From: Omnitrophica bacterium RIFCSPHIGHO2_02_FULL_51_18
Lineage (GTDB): Bacteria; Omnitrophota; Gorgyraeia; 2-02-FULL-51-18
Direction of reading: 5' to 3'
Assembly (NCBI GenBank): GCA_001804125.1
Contig: MHFI01000069.1
Location: forward strand, 1 to 33,284
Length of the DNA stretch: 33,284 bases
The notes under the pieces are model-generated. The model ran no database searches, was not told the origin of the DNA, and saw only the letters and a list, made by a program, of their open reading frames with translations. The position numbers were made by a program, and so were the translations under genes. Shown here piece after piece: positions 1,156 to 30,895 of the stretch; the stretch's first letter is position 1; each line of letters starts with the position of its first letter.

Positions 1156-1953
1156 TTAAGCTCTTAAAACCCCCGTCACGGGCCCAAACGGCGTGCGGAT
1201 GCGTATGAGGACGGGGACCCTGGAGGCATCCATCGTGAAATTCACCCAGCCCCGGCCCCGCCGGTACAACACTTCCTTGTACTGTGTCCTCGGCTCCACC
1301 TCGATCGTCCAAATCACTTTGCCGCCTCTCAGCTCTTTCTTTTGCGCCTGCAAAACCCGGATCTCCACCTCATAATCTTTCCCTTTGTCGCTGATCCTCG
1401 TATGCACGCTTTGGCCGGCCTGAATCGACTGGACCCGGAACCAGTAGAATACGCTTAAAAAATCCTGCGTTTTCGGTAAAATGGCAAATTCTTTCTTCGT
1501 GTGGTTGAGAAACGATTCATAAAACCCTTTCCGGTTTTTAGAGTCAAACACCACTCTTTCATCCGCGCGATAGCGGCCCTCCTTCAAGTTTTTGCCAAAC
1601 TCGTACGAGTAAAATTCCTCCGCATCAATTTTGGAATAAATTTCGTCGTAAATCGGGTAAATCTTTGAGAGCGTGTCGTTGGTGCGCGCAATCGCGACCA
1701 CGTGGTAGGCGGGACGGCCGTTTGGGCCGACCGCCTCCTTTACCTCGAGGCTCCCGATCCCGACGTGAAGTCCCATCCAGTAAACGTCAAAAAGCAGTTT
1801 CTCGCCGACAGTCAGCTTTCCGGAAGGCGCTTCTATCGGAGGGGACACTCCCGATTCGGAGATGGAATTATTTTTCGCGAAATTCACGGCGGAAAAAAGA
1901 GGGGCTTGCGCCAGAAGCGAAAGAAATATGAGAAGGACAATTCTTTTTTTCAA
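1156..1953 (-). CDS. DUF3108 secreted/periplasmic protein
   Basis: The predicted product has 265 residues. The N-terminus is a signal peptide (KKRIVLLIFLSLLAQAPLFSA). The mature part has the DUF3108 pattern: a GEKLLFDVYWMGLHVG strand near residue 50, an SKIYPIYDEIYSKID segment near 96, and a C-terminal beta-rich region ending in a VPVLIRIRTPFGPVTG strand. DUF3108 proteins are periplasmic beta-sheet proteins of unknown biochemical role. I chose TTG at 1953 because it follows AAAGG, starts directly at the signal peptide and overlaps the upstream stop as TTGA. A longer frame back to 2055 would run 100 bases into the GT9 gene. As the last gene of the LPS operon it may act in envelope assembly (inference). 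Confidence 0.82.
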   Translation of the reverse strand: MKKRIVLLIFLSLLAQAPLFSAVNFAKNNSISESGVSPPIEAPSGKLTVGEKLLFDVYWMGLHVGIGSLEVKEAVGPNGRPAYHVVAIARTNDTLSKIYPIYDEIYSKIDAEEFYSYEFGKNLKEGRYRADERVVFDSKNRKGFYESFLNHTKKEFAILPKTQDFLSVFYWFRVQSIQAGQSVHTRISDKGKDYEVEIRVLQAQKKELRGGKVIWTIEVEPRTQYKEVLYRRGRGWVNFTMDASRVPVLIRIRTPFGPVTGVLRA

Positions 1954-3920
1954 CGGACCTTTACGAGGGATTCCTTTTCTCCCAGCATTTCCATGAGCGC
2001 TCCGTAAACCTCCTCGACGCCCAGCGCCTTTAAACATTCGAAGTCGATCGTGCAATCATCCGCCAGGCACACGACACAGCCGGTATTCTTCTGAAGCGTG
2101 CGATGGTTTTCGCCTAAGGGTTTCCAGCGTTCGCGATTCAGGCCTGCTTTGTTGCGCCCGAAAACCACCAGCGTCTTGGTGCCGGCACCGGCCGCGATGT
2201 GTACGGGCCCCGAATCGTTGGAAACAAGCGCTTCGCACTTGGAAAGAAACGCCGCGAGCTCCTTAATATCCAGCCGGCCCGTGAGATCCGCGACCCTTTC
2301 CGTATTTTCCTTTTCTAAAACCGCGCCGGGCGCCTTTTCATCTTCCCCTCCGATCACGGCCACTTTAAACGGCGTTTTCCTTAAAATGATTCTGACAAGT
2401 TCCGTGTAACGCTCCATCGGCCATTTCTTGGAGGCACAGCTTGAACCCGGGTGGAGCGCGATGATTTTTCGACCCGCAAAACCTTGCATTTTTCTTTCAT
2501 GCTCGACGGAAAAAGGGACGCCGCAGGCCTTTTTTTCCAAGGCCGGAATCCCAAACGCCCGGACCACGTCGAGCGCGTATTCGGACTCGTGCTTCAGTCC
2601 CAAATGCCGCAAATCCTTCACCTTTTTAGTCAGAAGAAAAGACAGCGTAGAATCAAATCCGATCCGGACGGGAATCCCCGCCGCGAACGGGATCAAATGC
2701 GACCGCACGCTCGGGTGAAGAACGAAACAGATATCAAAACGGCGGCGGATGATCTCCCTTAAAAACCGGATGTTTCCCACGAAAAGTCGGTGGCGCCCCT
2801 TCTTTTCATAATGGTAAGGAATCACCTCATCAAGGGCCGCATGCCCCTCGACGATTCCGGCGGTCACGGGACGTGTCATCACGGAAATAAAGGCCTCCGG
2901 AAAATAATTACGGATCGCCTCAAGGGCCGGCAGTGACAATACGAGGTCTCCGATCCGGTCGAGCCGGACCACAAGGATATTCAGTTTCCTGGGCCTGAAT
3001 TCATCGCTTAAGAGCCGGCACGCCTTCGCGTAAACCTCGTCCACGCCGAGCTCCCTCATGCACTCATGCTGGAAGCCGCACTGGGGCCTTTCACAGGGAG
3101 AGCAAAAAACCCTGCGGTTCATCGCAACGCTGTTTTCACCCCGCGGGCCGTACTTCAAAGGGTCTGTGGGGCCAAACATCGCCAGCGTCGGCGTCTTGAA
3201 GGAGTCCGCAATATGAAGCGGCGCGCTGTCATTGGTGACCACGAGCGCCGAAGATTTGAGAATATGACAAAGTTCCTGAAAACTTGTTTGGCCCGATAAA
3301 TCCGACACGGCGGCGCTCATCAGGGACTTTATTTTTTCACAGTCCCCCGAATCGCCCGAGTCCCCCACCAACACCAGCCGGCAATTTTTCTCAAGCGCCA
3401 AACGATCCAAGAGTTTTGCAAAGTACTCCGCCGGCCATTTTTTGATGCCGCTCTTGGAGCCGGGCGCCGCCGCCACGAGCGGTCGGGACTCGTCGGGATC
3501 AAATGCGCCTTTTGGGGTCTCAAGAAAGGAGACCTCCGTTGAAACCGGAATTTTTAAACTTTTCAAGGCCGCCAGATGCCCTAACCCCTTGTGTTTGACG
3601 CGCGGCCGAAAGAAATAGGCGTTACGGCGCCGGGCGCCGCCGAAGAAGCCCAGCAGTGAATGGCGAAGGTCGATGATAAGATCGTAACGTTCTCTTCTAA
3701 CCGCAAACAAAAAATCAAGTTTTTCCTTCCAGGAAATGCGGCGATTATAAACCATGAGTTTTTGGATTCTCGGGTCGCCCTCAAAAACGATTTTCGAGTT
3801 TTCCCCGGCCACCGCGTGGATCTGTGCACCCGGAAACGCGCGCCTCACCGACTGAAAGACGGGAAGCGTCAAAACCGCATCCCCGATATTGGAAAGCGTG
3901 ACGATCAAAACTTTCTTCAC
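1950..3920 (-). CDS. Tandem GT9 (heptosyltransferase-type) fusion protein
   Basis: The 656-residue protein contains two complete GT9 domains. Domain 1 spans about residues 1–305: VLIVTLSNIGDAVLTLP at the start, APGSKSGIKKWP near 152, VTNDSAPLHIA near 228, and a Cys cluster C-SPC-x4-C-x5-C at 273–287. Domain 2 spans about 313–650, with NILVVRLDRIGDLVLSLP, HPGSS, VSNDSGPVHIAAG and a second Cys cluster near the end. GT9 enzymes transfer heptose (ADP-heptose donor) to the LPS inner core at the cytoplasmic face of the inner membrane. Two domains in one chain may add two successive sugars, but the acceptors cannot be read from sequence. It starts with GTG in a GTGA overlap with the waaF-like gene, behind a GGAG. 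Domain 1 also has a short GDSGDSGD repeat at 186–193. Confidence 0.9.
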   Translation of the reverse strand: MKKVLIVTLSNIGDAVLTLPVFQSVRRAFPGAQIHAVAGENSKIVFEGDPRIQKLMVYNRRISWKEKLDFLFAVRRERYDLIIDLRHSLLGFFGGARRRNAYFFRPRVKHKGLGHLAALKSLKIPVSTEVSFLETPKGAFDPDESRPLVAAAPGSKSGIKKWPAEYFAKLLDRLALEKNCRLVLVGDSGDSGDCEKIKSLMSAAVSDLSGQTSFQELCHILKSSALVVTNDSAPLHIADSFKTPTLAMFGPTDPLKYGPRGENSVAMNRRVFCSPCERPQCGFQHECMRELGVDEVYAKACRLLSDEFRPRKLNILVVRLDRIGDLVLSLPALEAIRNYFPEAFISVMTRPVTAGIVEGHAALDEVIPYHYEKKGRHRLFVGNIRFLREIIRRRFDICFVLHPSVRSHLIPFAAGIPVRIGFDSTLSFLLTKKVKDLRHLGLKHESEYALDVVRAFGIPALEKKACGVPFSVEHERKMQGFAGRKIIALHPGSSCASKKWPMERYTELVRIILRKTPFKVAVIGGEDEKAPGAVLEKENTERVADLTGRLDIKELAAFLSKCEALVSNDSGPVHIAAGAGTKTLVVFGRNKAGLNRERWKPLGENHRTLQKNTGCVVCLADDCTIDFECLKALGVEEVYGALMEMLGEKESLVKVR

Positions 3921-4906: not shown

Positions 4907-5658
4907 GAAGGCTCTTTGACGGACTTTCCGACACGGTATAAACCGCTTGTTTTGATCCAGAAATTAAAAAGGCTGCCGTTGGCCTCGCTGATCTTGACGC
5001 GCCGGAGCGCATAAGGATCGTGGCGGTCCTTGCCGCGATTGGTGGTCACGGCACCGCGATAACCTTCCCGTATCACCTGTTGCTTGATTTCCTCGGTAAA
5101 ACCGCCGGCCGGATAACTGAACAAAAACACGGGGTGCCCCAAAATCTTCTCCAGACGGTTTCTGGATTCCCGCAATTCGCGGGCGACTTCCTCCTTTTTC
5201 AGATCAGGCAGATAGGTGTGATGCGCTGTGTGGCTTCCGATTGCGATGCCGGCGCCGTCCAAAATTTTTAAATCTTCCTCGGACAACCAGCCTTCTTTAT
5301 TGAGGTTGTCCGTGATCATAAAAATAGCCGCGCGGAAGCGCATTTTCTTCAAAATCGGGAACGCATTCTTGAAATTATCCAGATTTCCGTCGTCAAACGT
5401 GATGGAGACCGTGTTTTTAGGTATCGGTTTCCCCTGCTTTATAAGGTCCAGAAGATCCTCCAGCGAAACCACGCGGTAGCGATGCACTTTCAAAAACTCC
5501 ATTTGTTTTTCGAACATTTTTGTCGAGACGTTCACCGGAGAGCTGCCGGACGTATCTCCGACATGGTGATACATCAGCACCGGTACTTCGTAATGGACCT
5601 GGGCCAAAAAAATAAGGCCGGCAGCCAACGCCGCTAACGTGAGGACTTTACGCTTCAA
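4903..5658 (-). CDS. Membrane-anchored polysaccharide deacetylase (NodB domain)
   Basis: The 251-residue product has one N-terminal hydrophobic helix (residues 5–20) that is a signal anchor or signal peptide, then a carbohydrate esterase 4 (NodB) domain. Visible motifs are VPVLMYHHV (25–33), ITFDDGN (86–92, catalytic Asp pair), SHTAHH (142–147, metal-binding His-x3-His) and YPAGGF (182–187). CE4 enzymes remove N- or O-acetyl groups from polysaccharides using a divalent metal. The position inside an LPS operon suggests a role on an envelope glycan, but the substrate is not known. I chose TTG at 5658: it starts just before the hydrophobic helix and overlaps the upstream stop as TTGA. A longer frame to 5802 would overlap the GT4–GT9 gene by about 150 bases. 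The ribosome site is weak. Confidence 0.87.
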   Translation of the reverse strand: MKRKVLTLAALAAGLIFLAQVHYEVPVLMYHHVGDTSGSSPVNVSTKMFEKQMEFLKVHRYRVVSLEDLLDLIKQGKPIPKNTVSITFDDGNLDNFKNAFPILKKMRFRAAIFMITDNLNKEGWLSEEDLKILDGAGIAIGSHTAHHTYLPDLKKEEVARELRESRNRLEKILGHPVFLFSYPAGGFTEEIKQQVIREGYRGAVTTNRGKDRHDPYALRRVKISEANGSLFNFWIKTSGLYRVGKSVKEPS

Positions 5659-7787
5659 ACCAGGCTCTGCGGTACGGGCGCTTGAGCCGCCGGACGAGCG
5701 GTTTCGACAAAATGGCAAACCGCATCCAACACCTCTTGGACGCCTATCTTTTTCATGCAAATGAGGCCGATCGGGCAATTCCTGAGATAACAGGGACTGC
5801 AATGCACTTCTTTCCAGAAAACCTGATAACGGGACGGCGGCACCAGATGCCGCTTCGGATCCGTGGGCCCGAAAATCGCCACGAGCGGCACATCGACGCT
5901 GGCCGCCACATGCATCGGCGCCGAATCGGAACTCACAAACACCTGGCAGCGCCGCACCAGCGCAATCAGCTCCGAAATGCTCGTCCGGCCGACCGCATGG
6001 ATCGGTTTGTGCTTGGTCAGGCGGAAAAGTTCATTCGTCAGCGGAATGTCCTCCGGCGTACCTGTGACCACCACACGGATATTTCTCTTGGCAAGCTCAT
6101 CACAAAGCCGCGCGAAATTTTCCACGCCCCATTGTTTGGTGGGCCAGCGAAGCGAGGAGCCGGGATTGATCCCCACCAGCACCTGGCTGGGCGCCACCCA
6201 CTGGGAGGCCATAAACTCCCGCACATGCGCCTGTTCCTCCTCATCCGCCCAGAGTTCAAGCCGTTTGTCAAAAGAGCCGATCCCCAAAAGCCGCAAGACC
6301 TTGAACTGATGCTCCAGCGGCGACACGCCGGCGCTCGAGGCGTCCGTCGTTTTTTTATTCAGCAGAAACGACCACTTGCGATTGTTCTGACCCGCGCGTG
6401 TACGGGCGCCGCACAGGAATGAAAGTGCGTGGCTCGTGCGGTTGTTCTGAAGGTCCACGACGATATCAAAATTCTCCTTGGCAAGCAGCCGCGCCGTCTT
6501 CAGGATGTTCAAAAGGCGGTTCTTGCCGGGCGTTTCCTCATAGACAATCGCGTCATCCACGTAGGGGCAGTTCCGGACAATCTTCCGGGACTTGCGGCCC
6601 ACGAGCACTGAAATCCAGGCGTCCGGAAACTTTGTCTTAAGCGCGCGGATCGAAGGGATGCTTAAAATCACGTCTCCGACCGCGCTCAATTTGATCACTA
6701 ATATTTTCTGGCGCGACACGGCTTCCTGATACGCTTCCAGCGTTTTCTGAAACATGAGATCCAGGTTAAATTCCTTCTCCACCTTCCGCCGCAGTGAAGA
6801 AGCCAGCCGGTCCGCAAGCGCCGGGTCCTTCAGGATACGGATAACCGCATCCGCCAGGATCTTTGGGTCATCGGGCGGCACCAAAAGCCCGTCCTTTTCA
6901 TCCTGGATGATATCGACGAGTCCTCCGATGCGTGTTGCCACTACCGGCACGCCGCAGGCGCCCGCCTCAATCACGACACGGCCGAATGCCTCTTCCCCCG
7001 TCGACGGCACCACCAAAACCGACATTTTCGACAATAGCTCCGGAATATCATAACGCGTACCCAGGAATTCGACCGCGTGGGAAAGACCGAGCCTTCGCAC
7101 CAGCGCTTTCAGTTCTTCCTTATATTGGGGTTTCGGCGCATCACCGATAATCTGGATCTTGAGCGGGGGCAGCACGCGTGTCACGCGCGCCATGGCCTTC
7201 AAAAAAAGCGGGTGTCCCTTGATAGGCGTAAGTCTTCCCACGATTCCGATCACCGATTCTTTCTTGCCGACGGGGTCCCCGGCCTCCTTGCGCTTAAATT
7301 CGTTCAGATTCACGCCACGGTGAATCAGACGGATTTTGTTATGGGGCACGCCGAAATCATCCCGCATCCGCCGGCCGATCACATGGCTGGCTACAATCGT
7401 GAGCTTGCCCCAACCCATCAGCGCGCTCAAGAAATGCTTACTGTAAAAACCGTGGCAGGTGGTGATGAACGGTACTTGGGTTTTCCGGCTCACCAGATAC
7501 GCCACGAGCGCCGGTACACGGCTTCGCGCATGAAGCACGTCGATATGTTCGCGCTTCACTATCTTGGCCAGCGTGTTCACGGACCGAAGGATTGCAAACG
7601 GTGTTTTTTTATGTACGGGAAGCGCGTAGTGCAAGACCCCGGCCGAGGTCAGATCTCCCACCAACGGACCCCCGGCGGACACGACGACCGATTTGTGTCC
7701 CTTTTCCCTCAGGAATTTCGCAAGGTCCACGGTGCCGCGCTCCACGCCGCCGGAATTAAGCTCCGGAAGAATCTGAAGAACGTTCAC
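5655..7787 (-). CDS. GT4–GT9 glycosyltransferase fusion
   Basis: This 710-residue protein joins two different glycosyltransferase families. Residues 1–355 form a GT4 domain: LNSGGVERGTVDLAKFL at 10–26, HRGVNLNEF near 156, GRLTPIKGHPLF near 184, and the donor-binding EEAFGRVVIEAGACGVPVVA at 265–284. Residues 361–700 form a GT9 domain: ILVIKLSAVGDVILSIPSI, NPGSSLRWP, SSDSAPMHVAA, IFGPTDPKRH and a Cys cluster C-SPC-x4-C-x5-C. GT4 enzymes use nucleotide sugars and retain the anomer; GT9 enzymes are heptosyltransferases. One protein could therefore add two different core sugars (inference). It starts with GTG in a GTGA overlap and has a strong GGAGG upstream. Confidence 0.92.
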   Translation of the reverse strand: MNVLQILPELNSGGVERGTVDLAKFLREKGHKSVVVSAGGPLVGDLTSAGVLHYALPVHKKTPFAILRSVNTLAKIVKREHIDVLHARSRVPALVAYLVSRKTQVPFITTCHGFYSKHFLSALMGWGKLTIVASHVIGRRMRDDFGVPHNKIRLIHRGVNLNEFKRKEAGDPVGKKESVIGIVGRLTPIKGHPLFLKAMARVTRVLPPLKIQIIGDAPKPQYKEELKALVRRLGLSHAVEFLGTRYDIPELLSKMSVLVVPSTGEEAFGRVVIEAGACGVPVVATRIGGLVDIIQDEKDGLLVPPDDPKILADAVIRILKDPALADRLASSLRRKVEKEFNLDLMFQKTLEAYQEAVSRQKILVIKLSAVGDVILSIPSIRALKTKFPDAWISVLVGRKSRKIVRNCPYVDDAIVYEETPGKNRLLNILKTARLLAKENFDIVVDLQNNRTSHALSFLCGARTRAGQNNRKWSFLLNKKTTDASSAGVSPLEHQFKVLRLLGIGSFDKRLELWADEEEQAHVREFMASQWVAPSQVLVGINPGSSLRWPTKQWGVENFARLCDELAKRNIRVVVTGTPEDIPLTNELFRLTKHKPIHAVGRTSISELIALVRRCQVFVSSDSAPMHVAASVDVPLVAIFGPTDPKRHLVPPSRYQVFWKEVHCSPCYLRNCPIGLICMKKIGVQEVLDAVCHFVETARPAAQAPVPQSLV

Positions 7788-9754
7788 CCCGCCACCCTCC
7801 TCAATGCTTCACCTAACATCTTCCGATCCTTTGAAACCAGAGAAGGTGAGTGACTGTTTTTTGTAAAAGACGCCGCGAGCATCTCCCGGATATTTTCCGG
7901 TTTTGCCTCTACGATCAGGTTTTCCGCCAGAAGTCCTTTTAGAAAATCCCGGTGCTTGGGTTTTAGGGGGGCGCCGTCGGAAGGCATGAAAACTAAAACC
8001 GGTTTGCCCGAGGAAATGGCTTCCGAAACCATCGACATAGATTCGCCGGAAACCACCACCCTATCGGACAAAGCCAGGATGCCGCCCACCGTATCCGGAG
8101 GATTGAATTCATTGGCAATCACCAAAAGCGGACAGCGTGCCTTATCGGCAAAAGTCCGTTTCAAGCACTCGTCGGCCCAGGCCGGCGTGCGCCGGGAGGA
8201 CGTCGCGAGCACCACGGAACCGGACTCCGCGCTGTAGAGATTAAGCTCTTGTATAAGTTTTTCGAAATAGTCTTTAGAAAATCGGAGGTGCTCCGTATCG
8301 CCGCCAACCAAAAGCCCGATGCGTTTGGAACCGTTCGACCCTTCAAGATATTTGGAGAATAACGCGCCGGATATCCTCAAATACTCCTCAGTCACAAGTG
8401 ACGGGCTCGTTCGCACCCTAAAGACGTTCTTCGCGGGCTTCAATCGGTCGTGCTTTGGCGCAATCACAAGATCAAATCGCCGGGAAGAAAACGGCGGCTT
8501 CATGATCACAACGGATTTTGCGTTGTTCTCATGTTTGACCAAAAGGTTGAGCGCCGCAAGCGACGAGCCGCAGGAAATCACGATATCCGCGTAGGTTTGA
8601 ATTATTTTTTGATAACTTTCTTTCGACAACACCCATTTTAATAGCTTGGACTTAAACGGCAGTCGTCCCCGACACAGTATTGAAAACATGAGAAAAAAAT
8701 TTTCCCGCCCAGAATTCCGGTATCGGATTTCGATAATCGTCGAACTTATATGGTCAGGCCTTAAACCTTTGGCCGCACGCTCTTCTTTAATCGCCTCCAA
8801 CACTGCCAGCGACTGGTTCGAGTGCCCTGGTTTTGCGTCGCTTAAAATGAGCACCGAGCGGTTCGGCGTAGATTTCCAGCGGCGATGCGCCCACAACCAC
8901 TGACCCGGATTTTTTCGTATCTTCTTCTCCAGGATATCCGCAAACTGCTGTAGGATAAACTTTTCCCCTTCTTCCTGATTGACACCGGCTTCCGGCATTC
9001 GAAGCGGGCCCTCCAGCTCGACTCGGTGCCCGGTCAGGCCTTCGCGAAATATGAACGCGGGGAATATCGGTGAATTTGTCCGTATCGCGAAAGTGGCTGC
9101 GCCGCTCGGCGTGGAAGACCAACGATTAAAAAACTTCACGAACGTGCCGTTTCGGCCGGCATCCTGATCGCTTAAGATCCCGACTATTTTACCTTCCTTG
9201 AGCGACCTTAAGATTTCACGGATCGGCATTCCCTTATGGATGACCCGGCTCCCCTGGGATGTCCTTAAGGAATTTAAAAATTGGTCGGAGCGCGGGTGTT
9301 TCTGAACACGCGCAAGTGCCACCATCGGGAATCCCAGCAAGGTCGAGGCCACGCTCAGAAGTTCCCAATTTCCGAAATGACCCGTCAGAAATATAATTCC
9401 CTGATGCTGCTCCAGATATTTCGTAAATTTTTCGGTGCCAAGGATCCGAACGTGCCGATCAATGTAAGATCGGTTAATGTCCGGAAACTTCAGAAGCTCC
9501 ACGATCGCCATCACCATATTCTCAAAAGATTTCTTCGAGATGGCTTCAAGCTCCCGGGGTGATTTCTCGGCTGAAAACGCCGCCCTTAAATTTTGATACG
9601 CGATGCGCCTTCGTTTGTTGACGCTATAGATCAGGCGGCCGATTCGGCACCCCACCCAAAGCGAGCACTCAAGCGGCAACGCATGAACGATCCGGCGCGC
9701 GAGCTTCGCGGCGCTAAGAATTAAGGCATCTTCGAATAAAATCTTCTTCATCAT
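7784..9754 (-). CDS. Fusion of LpxL-type lipid A acyltransferase and ELM1-family domain
   Basis: The 656-residue protein has an N-terminal acyltransferase of the LpxL/HtrB family (about 1–295). The catalytic H-x4-E is H126–E131 in LTGHFGNWELL, with GILSDQDAG (192–200) and WLWAHRRWK (287–294) also typical. LpxL enzymes add secondary acyl chains to lipid A in the inner membrane. Residues 300–656 belong to the ELM1 family (DUF1022): SDAKPGHSNQSLAVLEAI (305–322), LVGGDTEHLRFS, TSSRRTP, and a long SGESMSMVSEA stretch at 569–579. Bacterial ELM1 proteins look like GT-B glycosyltransferases but have no established activity. ATG at 9754 overlaps the end of lpxK by 41 bases, and no later start is available in the following 14 codons. 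The second ATG at 9751 is equally possible. Confidence 0.9.
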   Translation of the reverse strand: MMKKILFEDALILSAAKLARRIVHALPLECSLWVGCRIGRLIYSVNKRRRIAYQNLRAAFSAEKSPRELEAISKKSFENMVMAIVELLKFPDINRSYIDRHVRILGTEKFTKYLEQHQGIIFLTGHFGNWELLSVASTLLGFPMVALARVQKHPRSDQFLNSLRTSQGSRVIHKGMPIREILRSLKEGKIVGILSDQDAGRNGTFVKFFNRWSSTPSGAATFAIRTNSPIFPAFIFREGLTGHRVELEGPLRMPEAGVNQEEGEKFILQQFADILEKKIRKNPGQWLWAHRRWKSTPNRSVLILSDAKPGHSNQSLAVLEAIKEERAAKGLRPDHISSTIIEIRYRNSGRENFFLMFSILCRGRLPFKSKLLKWVLSKESYQKIIQTYADIVISCGSSLAALNLLVKHENNAKSVVIMKPPFSSRRFDLVIAPKHDRLKPAKNVFRVRTSPSLVTEEYLRISGALFSKYLEGSNGSKRIGLLVGGDTEHLRFSKDYFEKLIQELNLYSAESGSVVLATSSRRTPAWADECLKRTFADKARCPLLVIANEFNPPDTVGGILALSDRVVVSGESMSMVSEAISSGKPVLVFMPSDGAPLKPKHRDFLKGLLAENLIVEAKPENIREMLAASFTKNSHSPSLVSKDRKMLGEALRRVAG

Positions 9755-12039: not shown

Positions 12040-12936
12040 TTAAGCCCTGGGATGTGCTTTGTCATAAACGTCTTTCAAGCGCTGCGTGGAAACATGCGTG
12101 TAAATCTGCGTGGTCGACAGGTTCTCGTGGCCTAAAAGCTCCTGCACGGACCTTAAATCCGCGCCGCGGTTCAGAAGGTGCGTCGCAAATGAATGGCGAA
12201 GCGTGTGCGGCGAGACTCCTTCCTTGCGGCAGGTGAGTCCGATGTACTTCTCCAGAAGCCGGCATATGCTGCGCGGTGTCAAACGTGAGCCTTGTTGATT
12301 CGGTGAATGATTCAGAAAAAGCGCTTTTTCTTGATTTTTTTCCTTCTTCTCTCTGAGCTCCAGGTAGCGGCGGATGCTTAAAATGGCCTTGTCCCCGATC
12401 GGGCAAAGCCGCTCCTTGCGGCCTTTTCCGAGCACGCGGCAAACACCGCCGATAAAATCGATGCCGTCGGCGTTGAGCTGGACAAGCTCCGAGACCCGCA
12501 GGCCTGTCGAATAAAGCGTTTCAAGAATCGCCTTGTCGCGACGGCCCGAGAGGTCGTCTTCCGGCGAATTCAAAAGCGCGCTCATTTCATTCTCATCGAG
12601 CACCATCGGAAGCCGTTTCTCAAGCTTAGGCGTTCTTAAGAAGCTCAGCGGGCTCTTCTTTAAGTAGCCCTCGCGCACGAGAAACCTGAAATACGTGCGA
12701 AGCGCGGCCACGCGACGGGCAACCGTTTTCTTTGAAAGTTCACGGTCTTTTAAAGCGGCCAGGTATCTCCTTAAAAGAAGCACGTCGACATCCTCAAGCG
12801 CCGTGCTTCCGATAAAGCCGCGAAATTCGTGCAAGTCATGCGTGTAACCCGTGAGCGTGTGCGGGGAGTAATTCTTCTCTGCCTTAAGATAATTCAAAAA
12901 CTTTACGGTCGTGGCATCCATTACTGAGTTATCCAT
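12040..12936 (-). CDS. xerC: Tyrosine recombinase XerC/XerD
   Basis: Xer recombinases resolve chromosome dimers at dif sites before cell division. The 298-residue protein has the usual N-terminal SAM-like core-binding domain (about 7–90) and a C-terminal catalytic domain. The full catalytic set is visible: R147 (TGLRVSELV), K171 (GKGRKERL), H244 and R247 (SPHTLRHSFATHLL), H270 (LLGHENLSTTQIY) and nucleophile Y279. XerC and XerD cannot be separated safely by eye; the symbol xerC follows the common dprA–topA–xerC gene order. ATG at 12936 overlaps the end of topA by 8 bases. Confidence 0.93.
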   Translation of the reverse strand: MDNSVMDATTVKFLNYLKAEKNYSPHTLTGYTHDLHEFRGFIGSTALEDVDVLLLRRYLAALKDRELSKKTVARRVAALRTYFRFLVREGYLKKSPLSFLRTPKLEKRLPMVLDENEMSALLNSPEDDLSGRRDKAILETLYSTGLRVSELVQLNADGIDFIGGVCRVLGKGRKERLCPIGDKAILSIRRYLELREKKEKNQEKALFLNHSPNQQGSRLTPRSICRLLEKYIGLTCRKEGVSPHTLRHSFATHLLNRGADLRSVQELLGHENLSTTQIYTHVSTQRLKDVYDKAHPRA

Positions 12937-15160
12937 AAATTTCCGGATCCTTTTCTTCCAAAGTTTTTAAGTCTACCGCCGGCTCGCCGGCCTTCGGCAG
13001 GCGATTGGCGATAAACGTGCACTCAGGATACTTCGTACACCCGTAAAAAGGCCGGCCGCGGCCCGAACGCGCGCGGCGTGCCACGAGCTTCCCTTTGCCG
13101 CACTGCGGGCAAACGGCGTCCGTCGGAATCGATTTCGCGTTCTTGCACTCCGGCCAGCCCGAACAACTCATAAATCGCCCGCGGCGGCCCCATTTAATCA
13201 CCATCGGCTTGCCGCATGTCTCGCAAATTTCGTCGGTGGGCTCAGCCTCTTTCTTTACGGTTTGCATCTGGACTTTCGCCAGCTCCATCTGGCCGCTGAA
13301 CACCCCATAAAACTCCCTCACAACGTTCACCCATTCATTCCGGCCCTCTTCCACCTCGTCAAGCTGTTCCTCCATTCTCGCCGTGAATTCAAAATCCAGG
13401 ATTTTTGAGAAATGCTTCACCAAAAGGTCCGTGACAAGCATTCCAAGCTCCGTAGGCACGAGGCTTCCTCCCTCACGCCTTATGTAGTCACGTTCGGTCA
13501 GCGTCTGGATCGTCGGCGCGTATGTGGAAGGGCGGCCGATACCCAGTTCTTCCAGCGCTTTCACCAGGGAAGCATCCGTGAATCTGGCCGAAGGTTTCGT
13601 AAAATGCTGCTCGTGCTTCAGGTCCAGAAGCGTCAGCATTTCTCCGGCCTCGAGATTCGGCAGCGGATTGTCCTGCTCCTCTTCCCTGCCCTGAACGACC
13701 AGGCAGCCGGGAAACTCCAACCGGCTGCCGCTGGCGCGGAAAAGATATTCACCGGCCGCGATGTCCGCCGTATCCTGCGCGACGATCGCGGGCGTCATCT
13801 GGCTGGAAACCGTCTGGCGCCAGATAATCGAGTAAAGCTTAAACTGGTCCGGCGACAGGTATTGCTCGATGTCCTTCGGATGCCGGAACACGGACGTCGG
13901 GCGGATCGCCTCATGCGCGGCCTGGGCGTCTTTTCTGGACTTGTAAACGTTCGGCTTCTCCGGCAGGTAACTTTTACCGTATTTCTTCAAGATAAGCCCG
14001 CGTGTTTCTTCGATGGCCACTCCCGACAGGCGGACCGAGTCGGTCCGCATGTAGGTGATGAGGCCTACACTCCCCTCGTCGCCTATTTCGACGCCTTCGT
14101 ACAGCGTCTGGGCGACCCGCATCGTCTTCGAGGCCGGGAACTTAAGAAGATTGTAGGCGGCCTGCTGGAGCTTGCTGGTCGTAAACGGCGGATAAGGGTT
14201 CCTCCTTTTCTTTTGTTTCTTGACCTCGCGGACAACAAAAGGAAGCTGTTTTATGTTTTCGACAGCGGAAGACGCCGCTTGTCCGTCCTTCATCTCAATC
14301 TTCTTATCGTCTATCTTCTCCAATCGGGCAATGAACGGCTTGGGGGCGCCCTTCTGTTTTTTAAGCTCGGCCTCAATCGTCCAGTATTCTTCGGGAACAA
14401 ACGCTCTGATCTTTCGTTCCTGGTCCACCACCAGACGCAGCGCCACGGATTGCACGCGCCCCGCCGAGAGGCCGCGGCCGACTTTCTGCCAGAGAAGAGG
14501 ACTCAAAGAATAGCCCACGATACGGTCCAGTACGCGGCGCGCCTGCTGGGCCCCCACGAGATTCATGTCAATATCCGAGGGATGATTGAACGCCTCCAAC
14601 ACCGCCTCTTTTGTGATTTCATTAAACACGACGCGCGCGACTTTCTTGCCGGCCCCAAGCTGGTTCTTCAAATGCCAGCTGATGGCCTCGCCTTCACGGT
14701 CAGGGTCGCAGGCGAGGTATATCTCGTTCTTGCCCTTGGCTTTTTTCTTAAGCTCGGCGAGAATCTTCTTTCGGTCTTTTGCGACGATGTACTGCGGCTC
14801 AAAATTATGCTCAAGGTCAATGCCCATCTTGCTCTTCGGAAGGTCCACCACATGCCCCATGGAAGCGGCCACTTCGTAACGATCACCCAAATACTTGTTG
14901 ATCGTCTTGCACTTCGCGGGAGATTCCACGATCACAAGCGCCCCACCCCCTGATTTGGCGCCGCCGCCGACAAAATGAACAATCTCCACCTCATCTGCTT
15001 CTTTCAACCGCACCTGGGCCAGGCGCTCTTTTGGAATAATTTCCATGTTGTGCTCGATAACCACTTTTTCCTTCGGAACGTCCAGCTCCAGAAGAAGCCC
15101 GGCGAGCGTCAGCGGACCCTTGAGCGTTTTTTTTGCTCCGTTCAACTGAATCGTAATCAT
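12929..15160 (-). CDS. topA: ThiS sulfur-carrier domain fused to DNA topoisomerase I
   Basis: This 743-residue protein begins with a complete ThiS domain (1–67): MITIQLNGAKK, EIIPKERLAQV and a C-terminal EIVHFVGGG, the exact tail type of Bacillus ThiS. A short linker (AKSGGG) leads into type IA topoisomerase I from residue 75 (LVIVESPAKCKTI). DPDREGEA (152–159) is the Toprim metal site, Y370 in GLITYMRTDS is the catalytic tyrosine, and two Cys4 zinc ribbons lie at 646–672 and 684–714. TopA relaxes negative supercoils. ThiS normally needs a free C-terminal glycine to carry sulfur for thiazole synthesis, which this fusion blocks unless cleaved. ATG at 15160 overlaps dprA as ATGA. An internal GTG at 14935 behind a G-rich run could give TopA alone. 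Confidence 0.95.
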   Translation of the reverse strand: MITIQLNGAKKTLKGPLTLAGLLLELDVPKEKVVIEHNMEIIPKERLAQVRLKEADEVEIVHFVGGGAKSGGGALVIVESPAKCKTINKYLGDRYEVAASMGHVVDLPKSKMGIDLEHNFEPQYIVAKDRKKILAELKKKAKGKNEIYLACDPDREGEAISWHLKNQLGAGKKVARVVFNEITKEAVLEAFNHPSDIDMNLVGAQQARRVLDRIVGYSLSPLLWQKVGRGLSAGRVQSVALRLVVDQERKIRAFVPEEYWTIEAELKKQKGAPKPFIARLEKIDDKKIEMKDGQAASSAVENIKQLPFVVREVKKQKKRRNPYPPFTTSKLQQAAYNLLKFPASKTMRVAQTLYEGVEIGDEGSVGLITYMRTDSVRLSGVAIEETRGLILKKYGKSYLPEKPNVYKSRKDAQAAHEAIRPTSVFRHPKDIEQYLSPDQFKLYSIIWRQTVSSQMTPAIVAQDTADIAAGEYLFRASGSRLEFPGCLVVQGREEEQDNPLPNLEAGEMLTLLDLKHEQHFTKPSARFTDASLVKALEELGIGRPSTYAPTIQTLTERDYIRREGGSLVPTELGMLVTDLLVKHFSKILDFEFTARMEEQLDEVEEGRNEWVNVVREFYGVFSGQMELAKVQMQTVKKEAEPTDEICETCGKPMVIKWGRRGRFMSCSGWPECKNAKSIPTDAVCPQCGKGKLVARRARSGRGRPFYGCTKYPECTFIANRLPKAGEPAVDLKTLEEKDPEIYG

Positions 15161-16260
15161 GGTTTTATAAAACGCTTCCCCGGGAGTTGTTTCACGAGAC
15201 CTTTGATTTCGAGCATCGACAGAGAGGCGATCACCTTCGAGGGTCCCAAACCGCTCCCCTCAATCAACTCATCCACATGCAGGGCCTCGCCATCCATCAG
15301 TGACAAGAGCTTCTCTTCGTCGGGGTTGAGCGGAATTTTCTCTCCGGGCTTGCCGGTTTTGTTGATAGGGGAAGAAACCCGCGGCATTTTGAGTTCTTCC
15401 AAAATATCCCCAGCGGTGGTTACGAGCTTCGCACCCTGCTTTAAAAGTGAATTGGTGCCTTCAGAGCGTGCGGAATCCGCGTTTCCGGGCACCGCAAACA
15501 CTTCGCGGCCCTCCTCAAGCGCAAGATTCGCCGTGATGAGTGCGCCGCTTTTTTCCTTGGCCTCCACCACCAGAACGCCCCGGGACAGGCCGCTGATGAT
15601 CCGGTTTCTCACCGGAAAATGCTGCTTAAGCGGCAGCATCTGCATCGGGTATTCCGAAATCACGGCGCCTTTTTCGATGATCTCCTGAGCCAATTTTTTA
15701 TTCTCAGCCGGATAAAGTTTTGAAATTCCGCCGCCCAGCACCGCGACCGTGATCCCGTCCGCCGCCAAGGCGCCCTCATGCGCGGCGCTGTCAATCCCCA
15801 GCGCCAGGCCGCTGATCACTGCCACGCCCTCCCGGGCCAATCCGCTTGAAATCTCATGCGCCATTTTCCTCCCATAAAGCGAGCAGACCCTTGAACCCAC
15901 CACGGCCACTTTGGGAAGCGCAGGATCCGGCAGCCGGCCCCTTACGTACAAAAGAACCGGAGGATCGTAAATGGCTTTAAGCTCCTCGGGATACTCCTCA
16001 TCGAAAAAAGTCACGATTCGCGTTTTCTCCTTGAGCGCCTTTTCGATTTCCCGGTCGGCCTTTTCAAACAGCTTCGGATCCTTTATTTCCCTGAGGTTGA
16101 CCCGCTTCAACCCGTTCATTTTCAGAAGCTCCTTTTCCGAAGCCTTGAAGAGGGCGCTGGGTCTCTTATATTTTTCGATCAAAGCTTTAAACGCGGCCGG
16201 GCCCATGTTCCCGACGAGACTCAGCGCCACGGTCTGCCTCAATTCCTCAGTCAGTTTCAC
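15157..16260 (-). CDS. dprA: DNA-processing protein DprA
   Basis: DprA binds single-stranded DNA and loads RecA during natural transformation. The 367-residue product has an N-terminal helical (SAM-like) region (about 1–75), then the Rossmann-like DprA domain with VAVVGSRVCS (118–127), ISGLALGIDSAAHEGAL (149–165), VLGGGISKLYPAENK and SGALITA. A C-terminal winged-helix domain (about 300–367) completes it. I chose GTG at 16260 because it overlaps the aroK stop as GTGA, has GGAGG upstream and starts at the normal N-terminus; a longer frame to 16356 lies wholly inside aroK. With pilD nearby it hints at DNA uptake ability, but the uptake machinery is not in this window. Confidence 0.93.
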   Translation of the reverse strand: MKLTEELRQTVALSLVGNMGPAAFKALIEKYKRPSALFKASEKELLKMNGLKRVNLREIKDPKLFEKADREIEKALKEKTRIVTFFDEEYPEELKAIYDPPVLLYVRGRLPDPALPKVAVVGSRVCSLYGRKMAHEISSGLAREGVAVISGLALGIDSAAHEGALAADGITVAVLGGGISKLYPAENKKLAQEIIEKGAVISEYPMQMLPLKQHFPVRNRIISGLSRGVLVVEAKEKSGALITANLALEEGREVFAVPGNADSARSEGTNSLLKQGAKLVTTAGDILEELKMPRVSSPINKTGKPGEKIPLNPDEEKLLSLMDGEALHVDELIEGSGLGPSKVIASLSMLEIKGLVKQLPGKRFIKP

Positions 16261-26404: not shown

Positions 26405-26938
26405 TCATTCCTCACGACTCTGCCCTCCTTCGCTCTTTGGGATTGTATACCTGATGAGCTTCGGATGAAACAGGCATAGGAAATTTTTGGTGCGGCCCTT
26501 CGCGCTTAAACGGATCCTGCGCACGCGGGGCCCGCCATGCTCAAGATCGATCCTCAAGTATTCTTTCGGCAGAGTCTTTTTGCCGCGGTCCGCCCATTCA
26601 ATCAACGTAATCGCTTGCGAGTTAAAACACTCTTCGGCGAGCGCCCTGTCGAAACCCTTGAGCGATTCGAGCCGGTACCAGTCCATGTGAAAAATTTTAT
26701 GCCGCCCTTTGTACTCATGAATCAACACAAACGTCGGGCTTACCACCTGAGACTCTTTCTTAAGACCAATCCCTTTTGCAATCCCTTTAACCAGCGTGGT
26801 CTTGCCGGTCCCCAGCCCCCCGAAAAGCGCCACGACATCGCCGTTTCTTAAAAGTAAGCCTATCTTTCTTCCGATCTGTTTTGTGGTCTTCGGCGAATGG
26901 CTCAGCCACTCAACATATTGTTTTGGCCGCATGCTCAT
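26405..26938 (-). CDS. tsaE: t6A-synthesis ATPase TsaE
   Basis: TsaE is the small ATPase that resets the TsaB–TsaD complex. The 177-residue protein has Walker A GGLGTGKT (40–47), SPTFVLIHEY (67–76), the HMDWYRLE motif near 84–91 and LIEWADRG (about 111–118). The roughly 25 residues after the usual end (from about 150) are basic and extend past the typical length of about 150. It overlaps the thiL stop as ATGA. Confidence 0.94.
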   Translation of the reverse strand: MSMRPKQYVEWLSHSPKTTKQIGRKIGLLLRNGDVVALFGGLGTGKTTLVKGIAKGIGLKKESQVVSPTFVLIHEYKGRHKIFHMDWYRLESLKGFDRALAEECFNSQAITLIEWADRGKKTLPKEYLRIDLEHGGPRVRRIRLSAKGRTKNFLCLFHPKLIRYTIPKSEGGQSREE

Positions 26939-27918
26939 TTAAAATGGTCAAACCCTTTGTCTTCCAAGGGTCCGCCTTTGCCGTTAGCGTCGACTAACCG
27001 TACCCCATAAGACTTCGGCATGATTTTTCCGACCGGACAAAACGACGCAAGCCCCCGTTTTTTACCGGAAACTAGCGCCAGCTTGGACGCCTCTTTCGGG
27101 GAAAGCGTAAAAAGCAGTTCAAAATCCTCCCCCTCCGTCAGCGCTTGCCCGAAATGCACCCCTGGGGTGCATGGAATCGCCGCCGTAGAAAGACAAGCCC
27201 CCACGCGGCTGGCTTCCGTCAAACGAAAAATATCCGAAGCTAAGCCATCAGAAATATCCATCATCGCATGAACGTCAAAATGACGGAGCAGGAATTGTGA
27301 CTCCTTGATTCTCGGGGTAAACCGCAGATGCTTTTTAGAAGCATAGGAACCCCCTAACGTTCCGCTCACAAAAATGATATCGCCTAATTTTGCTCCCGAA
27401 CGACGGGTCACTTTCCCCTGATTCGCCTCTCCGAGGAGCGCAATCGAAAGGATGAGTTTCTTCGAAGCGTTTGTGTCGCCACCGATTATATTTACCCGAA
27501 AGCGGCGCGCAGCCGCGCGGATCCCACGGTAGATATCATGCGCAAAGCGAAGCGGCAAATCTCCCGGCGCGCCCAAAGCCACCACCGCATGCGTCGGCAC
27601 CCCGCCCATCGCCGCGATATCGCTTAAGTTCACGCCCAGCGCCTTCCAGCCAATCTCAAACCCGGACGCTTGGCCTAAGCGGAAGTGTTTGTCCTCGATG
27701 ATCATGTCCGTCGTAAAGAGCACTGTTTTATTTCCTATTTTAAGCACCGCGGCGTCGTCGCCGATCCCAAGCTCCACCCCGGCGCCTTTCGGCAGCATTT
27801 TCCGGACCCTTTCGATGAACCCGAACTCACCTGCCTGCCGAAGCGTCCTTAGACGTCCCGCGCTCACCCCGCCCTTTCTCAAACCAGAACTTTTATTCTT
27901 AGAAAGGACGGGGCTCAC
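26935..27918 (-). CDS. thiL: Thiamine-monophosphate kinase
   Basis: ThiL phosphorylates thiamine monophosphate to the active diphosphate cofactor, which ilvB in this window needs. The 327-residue protein has EFGFIERV (31–38), GIGDDAAVL (51–59), TTDMIIEDKHF, the long WKALGVNLSDIAAMGG motif, GGDTN, and MDISDGLASDI. The start used is GTG at 27918, a GTGA overlap with the CPBP gene. The first 17 residues are encoded by an inverted repeat and are not part of the normal protein. A second GTG (residue 18, 27867), right at the repeat edge, could be the original start. Confidence 0.94.
   Translation of the reverse strand: MSPVLSKNKSSGLRKGGVSAGRLRTLRQAGEFGFIERVRKMLPKGAGVELGIGDDAAVLKIGNKTVLFTTDMIIEDKHFRLGQASGFEIGWKALGVNLSDIAAMGGVPTHAVVALGAPGDLPLRFAHDIYRGIRAAARRFRVNIIGGDTNASKKLILSIALLGEANQGKVTRRSGAKLGDIIFVSGTLGGSYASKKHLRFTPRIKESQFLLRHFDVHAMMDISDGLASDIFRLTEASRVGACLSTAAIPCTPGVHFGQALTEGEDFELLFTLSPKEASKLALVSGKKRGLASFCPVGKIMPKSYGVRLVDANGKGGPLEDKGFDHFK
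27867..27913. repeat. Inverted repeat at the CPBP–thiL junction
   Basis: CCCCGCCCTTTCT (27867–27879) pairs with AGAAAGGACGGGG (27901–27913), 12 of 13 bases plus one G·T pair, around 21 bases. On the minus strand both edges are flanked by the same four bases, TGAG (27917–27914 and 27866–27863), as expected for a target-site duplication. Outer bases match the repeat at 24539–24604. Confidence 0.65.
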
Positions 27919-28961: not shown

Positions 28962-29735
28962 TTAAGGAACAGGCAGGTTAAAGAAGCTGATCGCGGTTTT
29001 TGTGGTCGTTGCCTCAAGCGTTTCCCTGGAGATGTTTCGTGCCTCTGACAAAACCTGAGCCAGATGCACCAAGCAGGAAGGCTCGTTTCGCTTTCCCCGA
29101 TAGATCTGCGGCGCCAGGTACGGCGAATCGGTTTCCAGCATTATTTTATCCAGAGGCGCATGCTTGGCCACCTCCAGAAGCGCGGCCGCATTTTTAAAAG
29201 TGACGTTGCAGGTAAATGAGGCTAAAAACCCGCTCTTCACAAGCTCCTCAAGCTCGGGCATATCATAAGAAAAGCAGTGCATGACTCCTTTTAAGTTTTC
29301 GCCGCCCTCGGCTTTAAGAATATCGAACGTGTCCTTAAAAGCGTTTCTGGAATGGACGATCACGGGCAGTTTATCTTCAAGCGCTATACGCAGCATGCGC
29401 GTAAAAACTTTTTTTTGGATTTCGGGTGAAGCTTCGCTCTTAAAATAGTCGAGGCCTATCTCGCCGATCGCGGATGGTTTCTCGCGTTTCACGAACTGTC
29501 TGATCTCTTCAAACGTCTCCTCCGTCGCCAGATGCGAGGAATGCGGATGCAGTCCCGCCGTCCAAAAAAGGCCCTCGTATTGTTTCGACAAATCCAGCGC
29601 CTGCTGGTTGGCCTCTGGATCCGTGCCCACGTTCACCATGTATTTTACACCCAATTCCTTCGCACGGTTGATCACGGCTTCCCGGTCAGGATCAAACGCG
29701 TCGAAGAAAAGATGGCAATGGGTATCAACAATCAT
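28962..29735 (-). CDS. tatD: TatD-family metal-dependent nuclease
   Basis: TatD enzymes are TIM-barrel DNases thought to act in DNA repair and DNA turnover. The 257-residue protein has all metal ligands: H6 and H8 (VDTHCHL), E in GEIGLDY, HSRNAF, HCFSYD and the D in LETDSPYL. Length is normal. It overlaps the desulfurase gene as ATGA and abuts the CPBP gene. Confidence 0.94.
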   Translation of the reverse strand: MIVDTHCHLFFDAFDPDREAVINRAKELGVKYMVNVGTDPEANQQALDLSKQYEGLFWTAGLHPHSSHLATEETFEEIRQFVKREKPSAIGEIGLDYFKSEASPEIQKKVFTRMLRIALEDKLPVIVHSRNAFKDTFDILKAEGGENLKGVMHCFSYDMPELEELVKSGFLASFTCNVTFKNAAALLEVAKHAPLDKIMLETDSPYLAPQIYRGKRNEPSCLVHLAQVLSEARNISRETLEATTTKTAISFFNLPVP

Positions 29736-30895
29736 TTACTTTTAGGATTCTGCGTGGACGCGCTTCTTAACCGTTCGACCATCGGCGGGATCTCGGTAAG
29801 CGCGTAGCTTATCTCTTCCTCCCGGGTGAAACGGCCCAGAGAAAAACGGATCGCTGCCCGCGCAAGTTTTTCCGACAGCCCCATCGCCAGGAGCACATGC
29901 GACGGCTCCACGGAACCGGCCGTGCAGGCCGAGCCTGTGGAGACATAAATATTTCTCAAATCAAAATTTATAAGAAGCGTCTCGCCGTCAAGACCGGGGA
30001 ATGAAACGTTGAGCGTATTGTAAATCCGTTTTTGCGGATGGCTGTTCAGCTTCAAGTCCGGCACGGCTTTTTGAAGGCCGCGATGCAGTTTCTCACGCAG
30101 GCCGGCAACCCTCTGAGACTCTTCCGGGCCGTATTTAAACGCAAGCTCGACCGTTTTCCCGAAACCCGTGATCGCCGCGACATTTTCGGTGCCGGGTCTC
30201 ACGTTTTTTTCCTGGTGGCCGCCGTGAATCATGGCCTTTACCTTAATCCCCTTCCTGATGTAAAGTGCCCCCGCGCCTTTTGGCCCGCAGATCTTGTGCG
30301 CCGATACCGAAATCATGTCCGCGCCGGCTTCTTCGGCGCCAGGCTTAATCTTACCGAAGGACTGAACGGCATCCGTATGGAACAAGGCTCCCTTTTTATG
30401 GGCGAGCCGGGCCGCTTCATGAATGGGCTGAATCGTGCCTGTCTCATTATTGACGTGCATCAGGCTTACCAACGCCGTATTTTCAGAAATGCTTTCCTTC
30501 AATACATTGAGGTCCACGAGTCCGTCTGCGTCCACGGGCAAATAAGTCACGCACATCCCTTTTTTCTCCAAAACTTGAGCCGAATGAAGCACTGCTTGGT
30601 GCTCGATCGATGAGACAACCAAATGGTTCCGTTTGCCGGACAGACCTTCCAGCGTTCCTTTGATCGCAAGATTATCCGATTCGGTGCCGCCGGACGTGAA
30701 AATGATATCTCCGGGCTCCACGCCGAGCGCATCCGCAATCGTCTCGCGCGCGCCCTCGACTGCATGACGGCTCTTCTGGCCTTTTTTATGAAAACTGGAG
30801 GCGTTACCGAACGCGTCGACAAGATACGGTTTCATCGCCTCAAGAACGAGCGGATCCAGCGGTGTGGTTGAGTTGTAGTCTAAGTAAGCTTCCAT
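29732..30895 (-). CDS. iscS: Cysteine desulfurase (NifS/IscS family)
   Basis: This PLP enzyme takes sulfur from cysteine as a protein persulfide for Fe–S clusters, tRNA thiolation and thiamine synthesis. The 387-residue protein starts YLDYNSTTPLDP, has IEHQAVL with H99, PLP-lysine K201 (SVSAHKICGPKG) and the mobile catalytic cysteine C324 in STGSACTAGSVEPSHVL. The longer active-site loop places it in group I (NifS/IscS). No iscU lies beside it, so IscS versus NifS naming is uncertain. No clear ribosome site is visible before ATG at 30895. Confidence 0.92.
   Translation of the reverse strand: MEAYLDYNSTTPLDPLVLEAMKPYLVDAFGNASSFHKKGQKSRHAVEGARETIADALGVEPGDIIFTSGGTESDNLAIKGTLEGLSGKRNHLVVSSIEHQAVLHSAQVLEKKGMCVTYLPVDADGLVDLNVLKESISENTALVSLMHVNNETGTIQPIHEAARLAHKKGALFHTDAVQSFGKIKPGAEEAGADMISVSAHKICGPKGAGALYIRKGIKVKAMIHGGHQEKNVRPGTENVAAITGFGKTVELAFKYGPEESQRVAGLREKLHRGLQKAVPDLKLNSHPQKRIYNTLNVSFPGLDGETLLINFDLRNIYVSTGSACTAGSVEPSHVLLAMGLSEKLARAAIRFSLGRFTREEEISYALTEIPPMVERLRSASTQNPKSK

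Follow-up and report, generated by a model that had tools for sequence, protein, structure and literature searches.

The ThiS-TopA gene and its surroundings

In the window (the whole stretch of DNA analysed here, 33,284 nucleotides), the minus strand carries between positions 12929 and 15160 a single open frame of 743 residues, which consists of a ThiS domain, a 7-residue linker and a full-length bacterial DNA topoisomerase I (TopA). The frame is uninterrupted from the ATG at 15160 to the stop at 12929, and the residues AKSGGGA join the VGGG end of the ThiS domain to the LVIVESPAK with which TopA begins. The parts of the gene, and the genes of the window to which the argument refers, are as follows.

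14960..15160, minus strand: ThiS domain, residues 1-67, with C-terminal Val-Gly-Gly-Gly (TIGR01683, PF02597, alignment to 1TYG chain B)
14960..14968, minus strand: Gly65-Gly66-Gly67, the counterpart of the free ThiS C-terminus, with a predicted cut after Gly67 (from GGG conservation)
14939..14959, minus strand: linker AKSGGGA, residues 68-74 (translation; unconserved among relatives)
12929..14938, minus strand: TopA, residues 75-743 and stop, with Toprim domain, type IA core with YMRTDS active-site motif, and C4 zinc ribbons (TIGR01051, PF01751, PF01131, PF01396)
14933..14935, minus strand: GTG codon of Val76, proposed as an internal start and unsupported (codon comparison of fused relatives)
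15157..16260, minus strand: dprA (open reading frame list and translation; family from sequence and gene order, without an HMM scan; the start, a GTG at about 16260, is our choice)
12040..12936, minus strand: tyrosine recombinase (XerC/D-like), overlapping the topA end (PF00589, PF02899)
26935..27918, minus strand: thiL, thiamine-phosphate kinase (TIGR01379, 251.6 bits, cut-off 184)
29732..30895, minus strand: NifS/IscS-type cysteine desulfurase, a possible sulfur donor (TIGR03402, NF002806)

Residues 1-67 score 68 bits against the TIGR01683 thiS profile when evaluated alone (cut-off 37.45), the same domain scores 44 bits against PF02597 when evaluated inside the whole protein (cut-off 22.5), and for residues 75-678 the score against TIGR01051 topA_bact is 798 bits (cut-off 456); the motif TYMRTDS is invariant in the TopA alignment. 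These profile scores and the single open frame bear out the claim of a preliminary description of this DNA that a ThiS domain is fused in frame to the N-terminus of TopA. The span of 14933-15160 which it gave for ThiS contains the domain but is too wide, because it also includes the linker and two residues from the start of TopA. The thiL gene and the cysteine desulfurase that it placed in the window are both present (252 bits against TIGR01379 for the former); the desulfurase scores 489 bits against TIGR03402, slightly below the cut-off, and 317.6 bits against NF002806, above the cut-off of 304. The stop codon of dprA and the ATG of the joined gene share a 4-nucleotide overlap (ATGA, 15157-15160).

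ThiS residues 4-67 align to 1TYG chain B (record name yjbS), which we take to be Bacillus subtilis ThiS from its complex with ThiG, and both sequences end at the final residue of the chain. As encoded, the Gly-Gly is not the free end of the protein, since 676 residues come after it. The AlphaFold model built from an alignment of 13 sequences is of low quality (mean pLDDT 61, pTM 0.39); in it, residues 1-62 follow a beta-grasp-like order and residues 62-71 have low confidence, a feature which would suit an exposed tail but is no proof of one.

Other fused frames lie on the minus strand of the window. A 656-residue frame at 7784-9754 joins a lipid A acyltransferase domain to a domain like ELM1 (mitochondrial fission), and of the glycosyltransferase fusions at 5655-7787 and 1950-3920, one joins a group 1 (GT4-type) domain to a family 9 heptosyltransferase and the other is a frame in which family 9 stretches occur twice. 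The window also contains Gram-negative lipid A genes, which are consistent with an uncultured lineage of Gram-negative bacteria.

Distribution and probable origin of the join

In relatives, profile searches placed ThiS matches within long frames as large as TopA, and these frames proved to have the architecture of the gene described here. The survey then covered the 5' end of topA in the relatives and in a wider draw of genomes from across the phylum. The in-frame ThiS-TopA fusion occurs in 27 genomes, which belong to six family groups (f1, f24, f29, f36, f56 and f65) and represent two or more classes of the phylum, and in 18 further genomes thiS is a gene by itself, closed by a stop and placed immediately before topA; both the join and the separate gene, for which the preliminary description had proposed a search, are thus found among relatives. 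Chance and sequencing frame error are excluded as the cause of the join, because 26 genomes other than that of the host have it in frame with variable linkers, and the frame error which had been considered possible at 14935-14965 is thereby set aside. In a contig scan that included other phyla, a full ThiS was matched by none of the best 80 of at least 588 confirmed TopA stretches; the matches among these 80 mostly begin at the linker or at the TopA start.

Where thiS is absent, topA in many genomes comes directly after the end of dprA. Because a separate thiS precedes topA in 18 genomes, and dprA precedes it in many that lack thiS, the ancestral gene order was likely dprA-thiS-topA. The adjacency of the separate thiS to topA in those 18 relatives also indicates that the fusion was probably created when the thiS stop was lost, and probably more than once: on the TopA tree the fused and adjacent states require five changes, at least three of which are forced by well-supported branches, and repeated fusion is the simplest reading of this tree, with some re-splitting possible. 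Separate genes with a stop between them, which the preliminary description had counted against a true fusion, therefore read as the likely ancestral state and not as a refutation.

In several of the separate-gene genomes (thiS-topA junctions L164, L171, L204-L209 and L216) the ThiS glycine codons, which are often GGAGG-like, stand at the Shine-Dalgarno position of topA. To judge from their sequence, these codons may double as the topA ribosome-binding site, and such an overlap could partly account for the tight packing of thiS and topA.

The production of TopA alone from an internal start at the GTG at 14935, which had also been proposed, is rejected: this codon is absent from 8 of the 22 fused genes compared, and several fused genes have no ATG, GTG or TTG anywhere from GGG to VESPAK. 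The second Val of the motif also shows high GTG use, and the frequency of GTG at Val76 is for this reason read as an effect of composition.

Conservation of the glycine end

The final GGG is invariant in all 21 fused proteins analysed, where it is among the few invariant columns of a ThiS domain whose mean identity within the fused set is 45%. One further fused genome has the end VAGG, so that every fused protein observed retains a Gly-Gly. The linker behind it is unconserved and varies from 4 residues (ATKS, KGGA) to 65 across the fused genomes. Within the family of the host, mean identity is 54% for ThiS vs 82% for the TopA N-terminus.

Where ThiS is encoded by a separate gene beside topA, 1-5 residues come after the GGG in 10 of the 18 genomes (A, V, S, I, R, AA, AL, SFAE and SIHGR). 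None of the five ThiS proteins from thiSGH operons has such a tail: all of them stop at the GGG.

The thiamine pathway and its association with the topA linkage

The host genome is a 1.53 Mb draft, about 92.5% complete, in which a profile search finds no ThiS-family match other than the fused domain. Its ThiG lies at C37:11985-12719 (367 bits), an enzyme combining ThiF/MoeB and rhodanese parts lies on the same contig at C37:42952-43659, and ThiC scores 1024 bits against PRK09284. Of the genes which the preliminary description had proposed to look for, thiG and a ThiF-type gene are thus present and a JAMM protease gene was not found in the host draft genome. A 500-residue fusion of MoaD-like, MoeB and rhodanese parts with an internal Gly-Gly, which places carrier and activator in one protein, was observed in another genome (G031:C13, about 90000-92286, minus strand; L050).

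ThiH is rejected as the source of the glycine imine in the host, since a search of the genome found no true ThiH. A weak, sub-threshold match to the FAD oxidase ThiO lies near thiC, and the sequence suggests that a divergent ThiO may supply the glycine imine for thiazole synthesis. The FAD enzyme in question is ThiO/sarcosine-oxidase-like (G000:C21, L190:8361-9494, minus strand) and lies about 3 kb from thiC; a similar ThiO-like enzyme was observed in several ThiH-less genomes of the host's family.

Among those of the 74 relatives with a readable topA start that are at least 90% complete, ThiG is present in 13 of 13 genomes in which thiS is linked to topA (fused or adjacent) vs 7 of 44 in which it is not, an association which amounts on the tree to only 4-6 independent contrasts, none of them against it and too few for significance; the Fisher values for this comparison are for that reason too strong. 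The seven unlinked genomes with ThiG carry other arrangements, with thiS beside thiG in five of them. When the wider draw is added, at all levels of completeness, ThiG is present in 37 of 44 linked genomes, and the remaining seven are all less than 90% complete; the unlinked genomes divide into 13 with ThiG and 51 without. The fused domain is most likely a working thiazole carrier and not a module of TopA, as far as these patterns of gene content indicate.

Candidate proteases and the possible trimming of carriers

The leading candidate for the protease in relatives is of the JAMM type, on the evidence of gene content. A JAMM gene is present in 19 of 24 topA-linked vs 12 of 50 unlinked genomes, a co-occurrence that is indirect because JAMM also serves the cysteine carrier system. 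Neither the Pfam profile nor a relative's protein used as query found a JAMM gene in the host draft genome; because this draft is about 92.5% complete, the gene could be missing from the data, and either it lies in the missing part of the genome or another protease does the cutting.

The carriers encoded beside JAMM genes in the group mostly have tails (MV, SPSDKEA, GDDGREN, DLKS, AWA) or continue directly past the GGG into cysteine synthase, with the exception of a carrier in one genome (G037) which ends at GGG. Together with the tailed separate ThiS proteins, these tailed carriers appear to fit a trimming activity older than the ThiS-TopA fusion.

Fusions of a ThiS protein ending in MGGG to cysteine synthase were observed in G054, G016 and G009 (L047, L048 and L049), and also in G005, G011 and G035, with a JAMM gene directly upstream in G009, G005 and G011, an arrangement which thus occurs in the same family as the ThiS-TopA fusion; one JAMM gene, with the motif EACG...HSH...SxxD, overlaps the ThiS-cysteine synthase gene. 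The carrier-synthase fusion is probably a fused form of the CysO-CysM-Mec cysteine system.

Interpretation

The activity of ThiS, MoaD and related carriers depends on a free glycine at the C-terminus, which is adenylated and then converted to a thiocarboxylate. Because ThiS requires this free glycine, we infer a cleavage after the GGG, and the product of the gene is probably a precursor polyprotein, ThiS-linker-TopA, which a protease would cut to free, working ThiS and TopA. The cut would be made post-translationally behind the Gly-Gly(-Gly) of the ThiS domain, and would yield a ThiS with a free C-terminal glycine and a TopA that is normal apart from a short additional stretch at its N-terminus. 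The freed ThiS would be activated by the ThiF/MoeB-rhodanese enzyme, sulfur would be loaded onto it as a thiocarboxylate, and ThiG would use this thiocarboxylate to form the thiazole ring of thiamine. As proposed here, thiS once stood as a gene of its own between dprA and topA, and the fusion formed when its stop codon disappeared; the proposed reason for the retention of the fusion is that it was tolerated by cells which already trimmed the tails of ThiS-family carriers, probably by means of a JAMM-type protease.

Release of ThiS is favoured for reasons that can be read from the genomes: the fused domain is the sole ThiS of a genome which also contains thiG, thiC and the ThiF/MoeB-rhodanese gene; the glycine end is invariant between a diverged ThiS domain and an unconstrained linker; and linkage to topA goes with thiG. 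The preliminary description had left the choice between release by a protease and a binding module on TopA; the first of these is preferred because the second leaves the Gly-Gly and the association with ThiG unexplained. A ThiS that stays attached to TopA could bring ThiF, ThiG or some other partner to DNA, or could regulate TopA, and would thereby link thiamine or sulfur status to supercoiling. The fusion has been retained in 27 genomes, some with linkers of just 4 residues, and an N-terminal fused domain can be tolerated by a topoisomerase, as in reverse gyrase, which carries a helicase in that position. Permanent attachment is nevertheless unlikely, for a domain that serves as a tether would not need to retain the terminal Gly-Gly, no well-assembled genome has ThiS on TopA without ThiG, ThiS is a separate protein in 18 relatives, and the linker can be as long as 65 residues. 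It is distinctly unlikely that the fusion is regulatory, in the sense that the dprA-coupled gene supplies ThiS and TopA in a 1:1 ratio and that controlled cleavage, or the binding of ThiF or ThiG, ties vitamin B1 or sulfur status to supercoiling, or the reverse; if true, a ubiquitin-like domain would in this case have a bacterial topoisomerase as its target.

The domain might instead be a vestigial passenger, in a pathway that is inactive or served by another carrier, with the fusion merely tolerated. The faster evolution of ThiS compared with the TopA N-terminus, the other ThiS-like proteins in several genomes and the lack of ThiH in the host genome are in keeping with this, but it is quite improbable when the domain still scores above the thiS equivalog cut-off, the Gly-Gly is retained in all fused genomes, the host genome has no other ThiS, and most genomes that lack ThiG also lack a ThiS on TopA. 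Use of the carrier without cleavage, in which the sulfur machinery reaches the internal Gly-Gly on TopA in a manner that can also be imagined for ThiS-ThiG fusions, is very improbable: bacterial ThiS-ThiG and other ThiS fusions do exist (PMC1779556), and no account of their processing was found in the literature, but the chemistry requires a free glycine carboxylate, as established for ThiS and MoaD, and the uncleaved G81A variant of MoaX is inactive (PMC4326299). The probability that the join reflects an error of assembly or frame, or that two proteins are made from separate starts in the one frame, is close to nil; the genome is a draft and a GTG is present at 14935, but the in-frame join is found in 27 genomes with differing linkers, the GTG is unconserved, and some fused genes offer no possible start there.

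Comparison with known systems

If the precursor reading is correct, automated annotation in these bacteria will call thiS missing or topA odd, and a ThiS-releasing protease is predicted in uncultured bacteria. The lineages span intermediate states, from a separate gene ending in GGG through a separate gene with a short tail to the full fusion, and these states can be used to study the evolution of the processing of ubiquitin-like precursors.

No description of a ThiS-TopA fusion was found in full-text searches of the literature. Fusions of ThiS to ThiG, ThiF and sulfite reductase are known (PMC1779556), and resemble the present gene in having ThiS as one domain within a longer polypeptide; however, the partners listed in that survey all belong to thiamine or sulfur metabolism, and topoisomerase is absent from it. 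MoaX, the MoaD-MoaE fusion of Mycobacterium tuberculosis, requires for its activity a cleavage between Gly82 and Ser83, made by a protease that was then unidentified (PMC4326299). It shares with ThiS-TopA an N-terminal carrier of the ThiS fold, an internal Gly-Gly (followed in MoaX by Ser) and a second enzyme downstream, but this enzyme is the carrier's own pathway partner in MoaX and is DNA topoisomerase I here, and the cleavage demonstrated for MoaX is for ThiS-TopA a prediction (PMC4326299). In Deinococcus, DRJAMM cuts a MoaD-MoaE fusion and leaves a C-terminal Gly (PMC8832034). That case is again a carrier fusion, with a JAMM cut behind Gly where for ThiS-TopA we infer one; it differs in the partner enzyme, and in that no JAMM was found in the draft genome of the ThiS-TopA host. 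ThiS-TopA has the layout of the processed carriers, namely a carrier domain, a Gly-Gly and a downstream protein in one frame, as in MoaX and the Deinococcus MoaD-MoaE.

Outside the molybdopterin systems, QbsE (with QbsD) and the ubiquitin precursors are beta-grasp proteins with a C-terminal extension that is trimmed to a free Gly-Gly, and in UBA52 and RPS27A the extension of ubiquitin is an unrelated essential protein. These are eukaryotic or secondary-metabolite systems, whereas the present case concerns a bacterial vitamin pathway and a topoisomerase. By analogy, ThiS-TopA may be regarded as a C-terminally extended precursor of a ubiquitin-fold carrier, with its nearest functional likeness in the ubiquitin-ribosomal protein fusions; if this is true, it would be a bacterial counterpart of those precursors, in which a ubiquitin-fold protein is cut from the front of an unrelated housekeeping enzyme.
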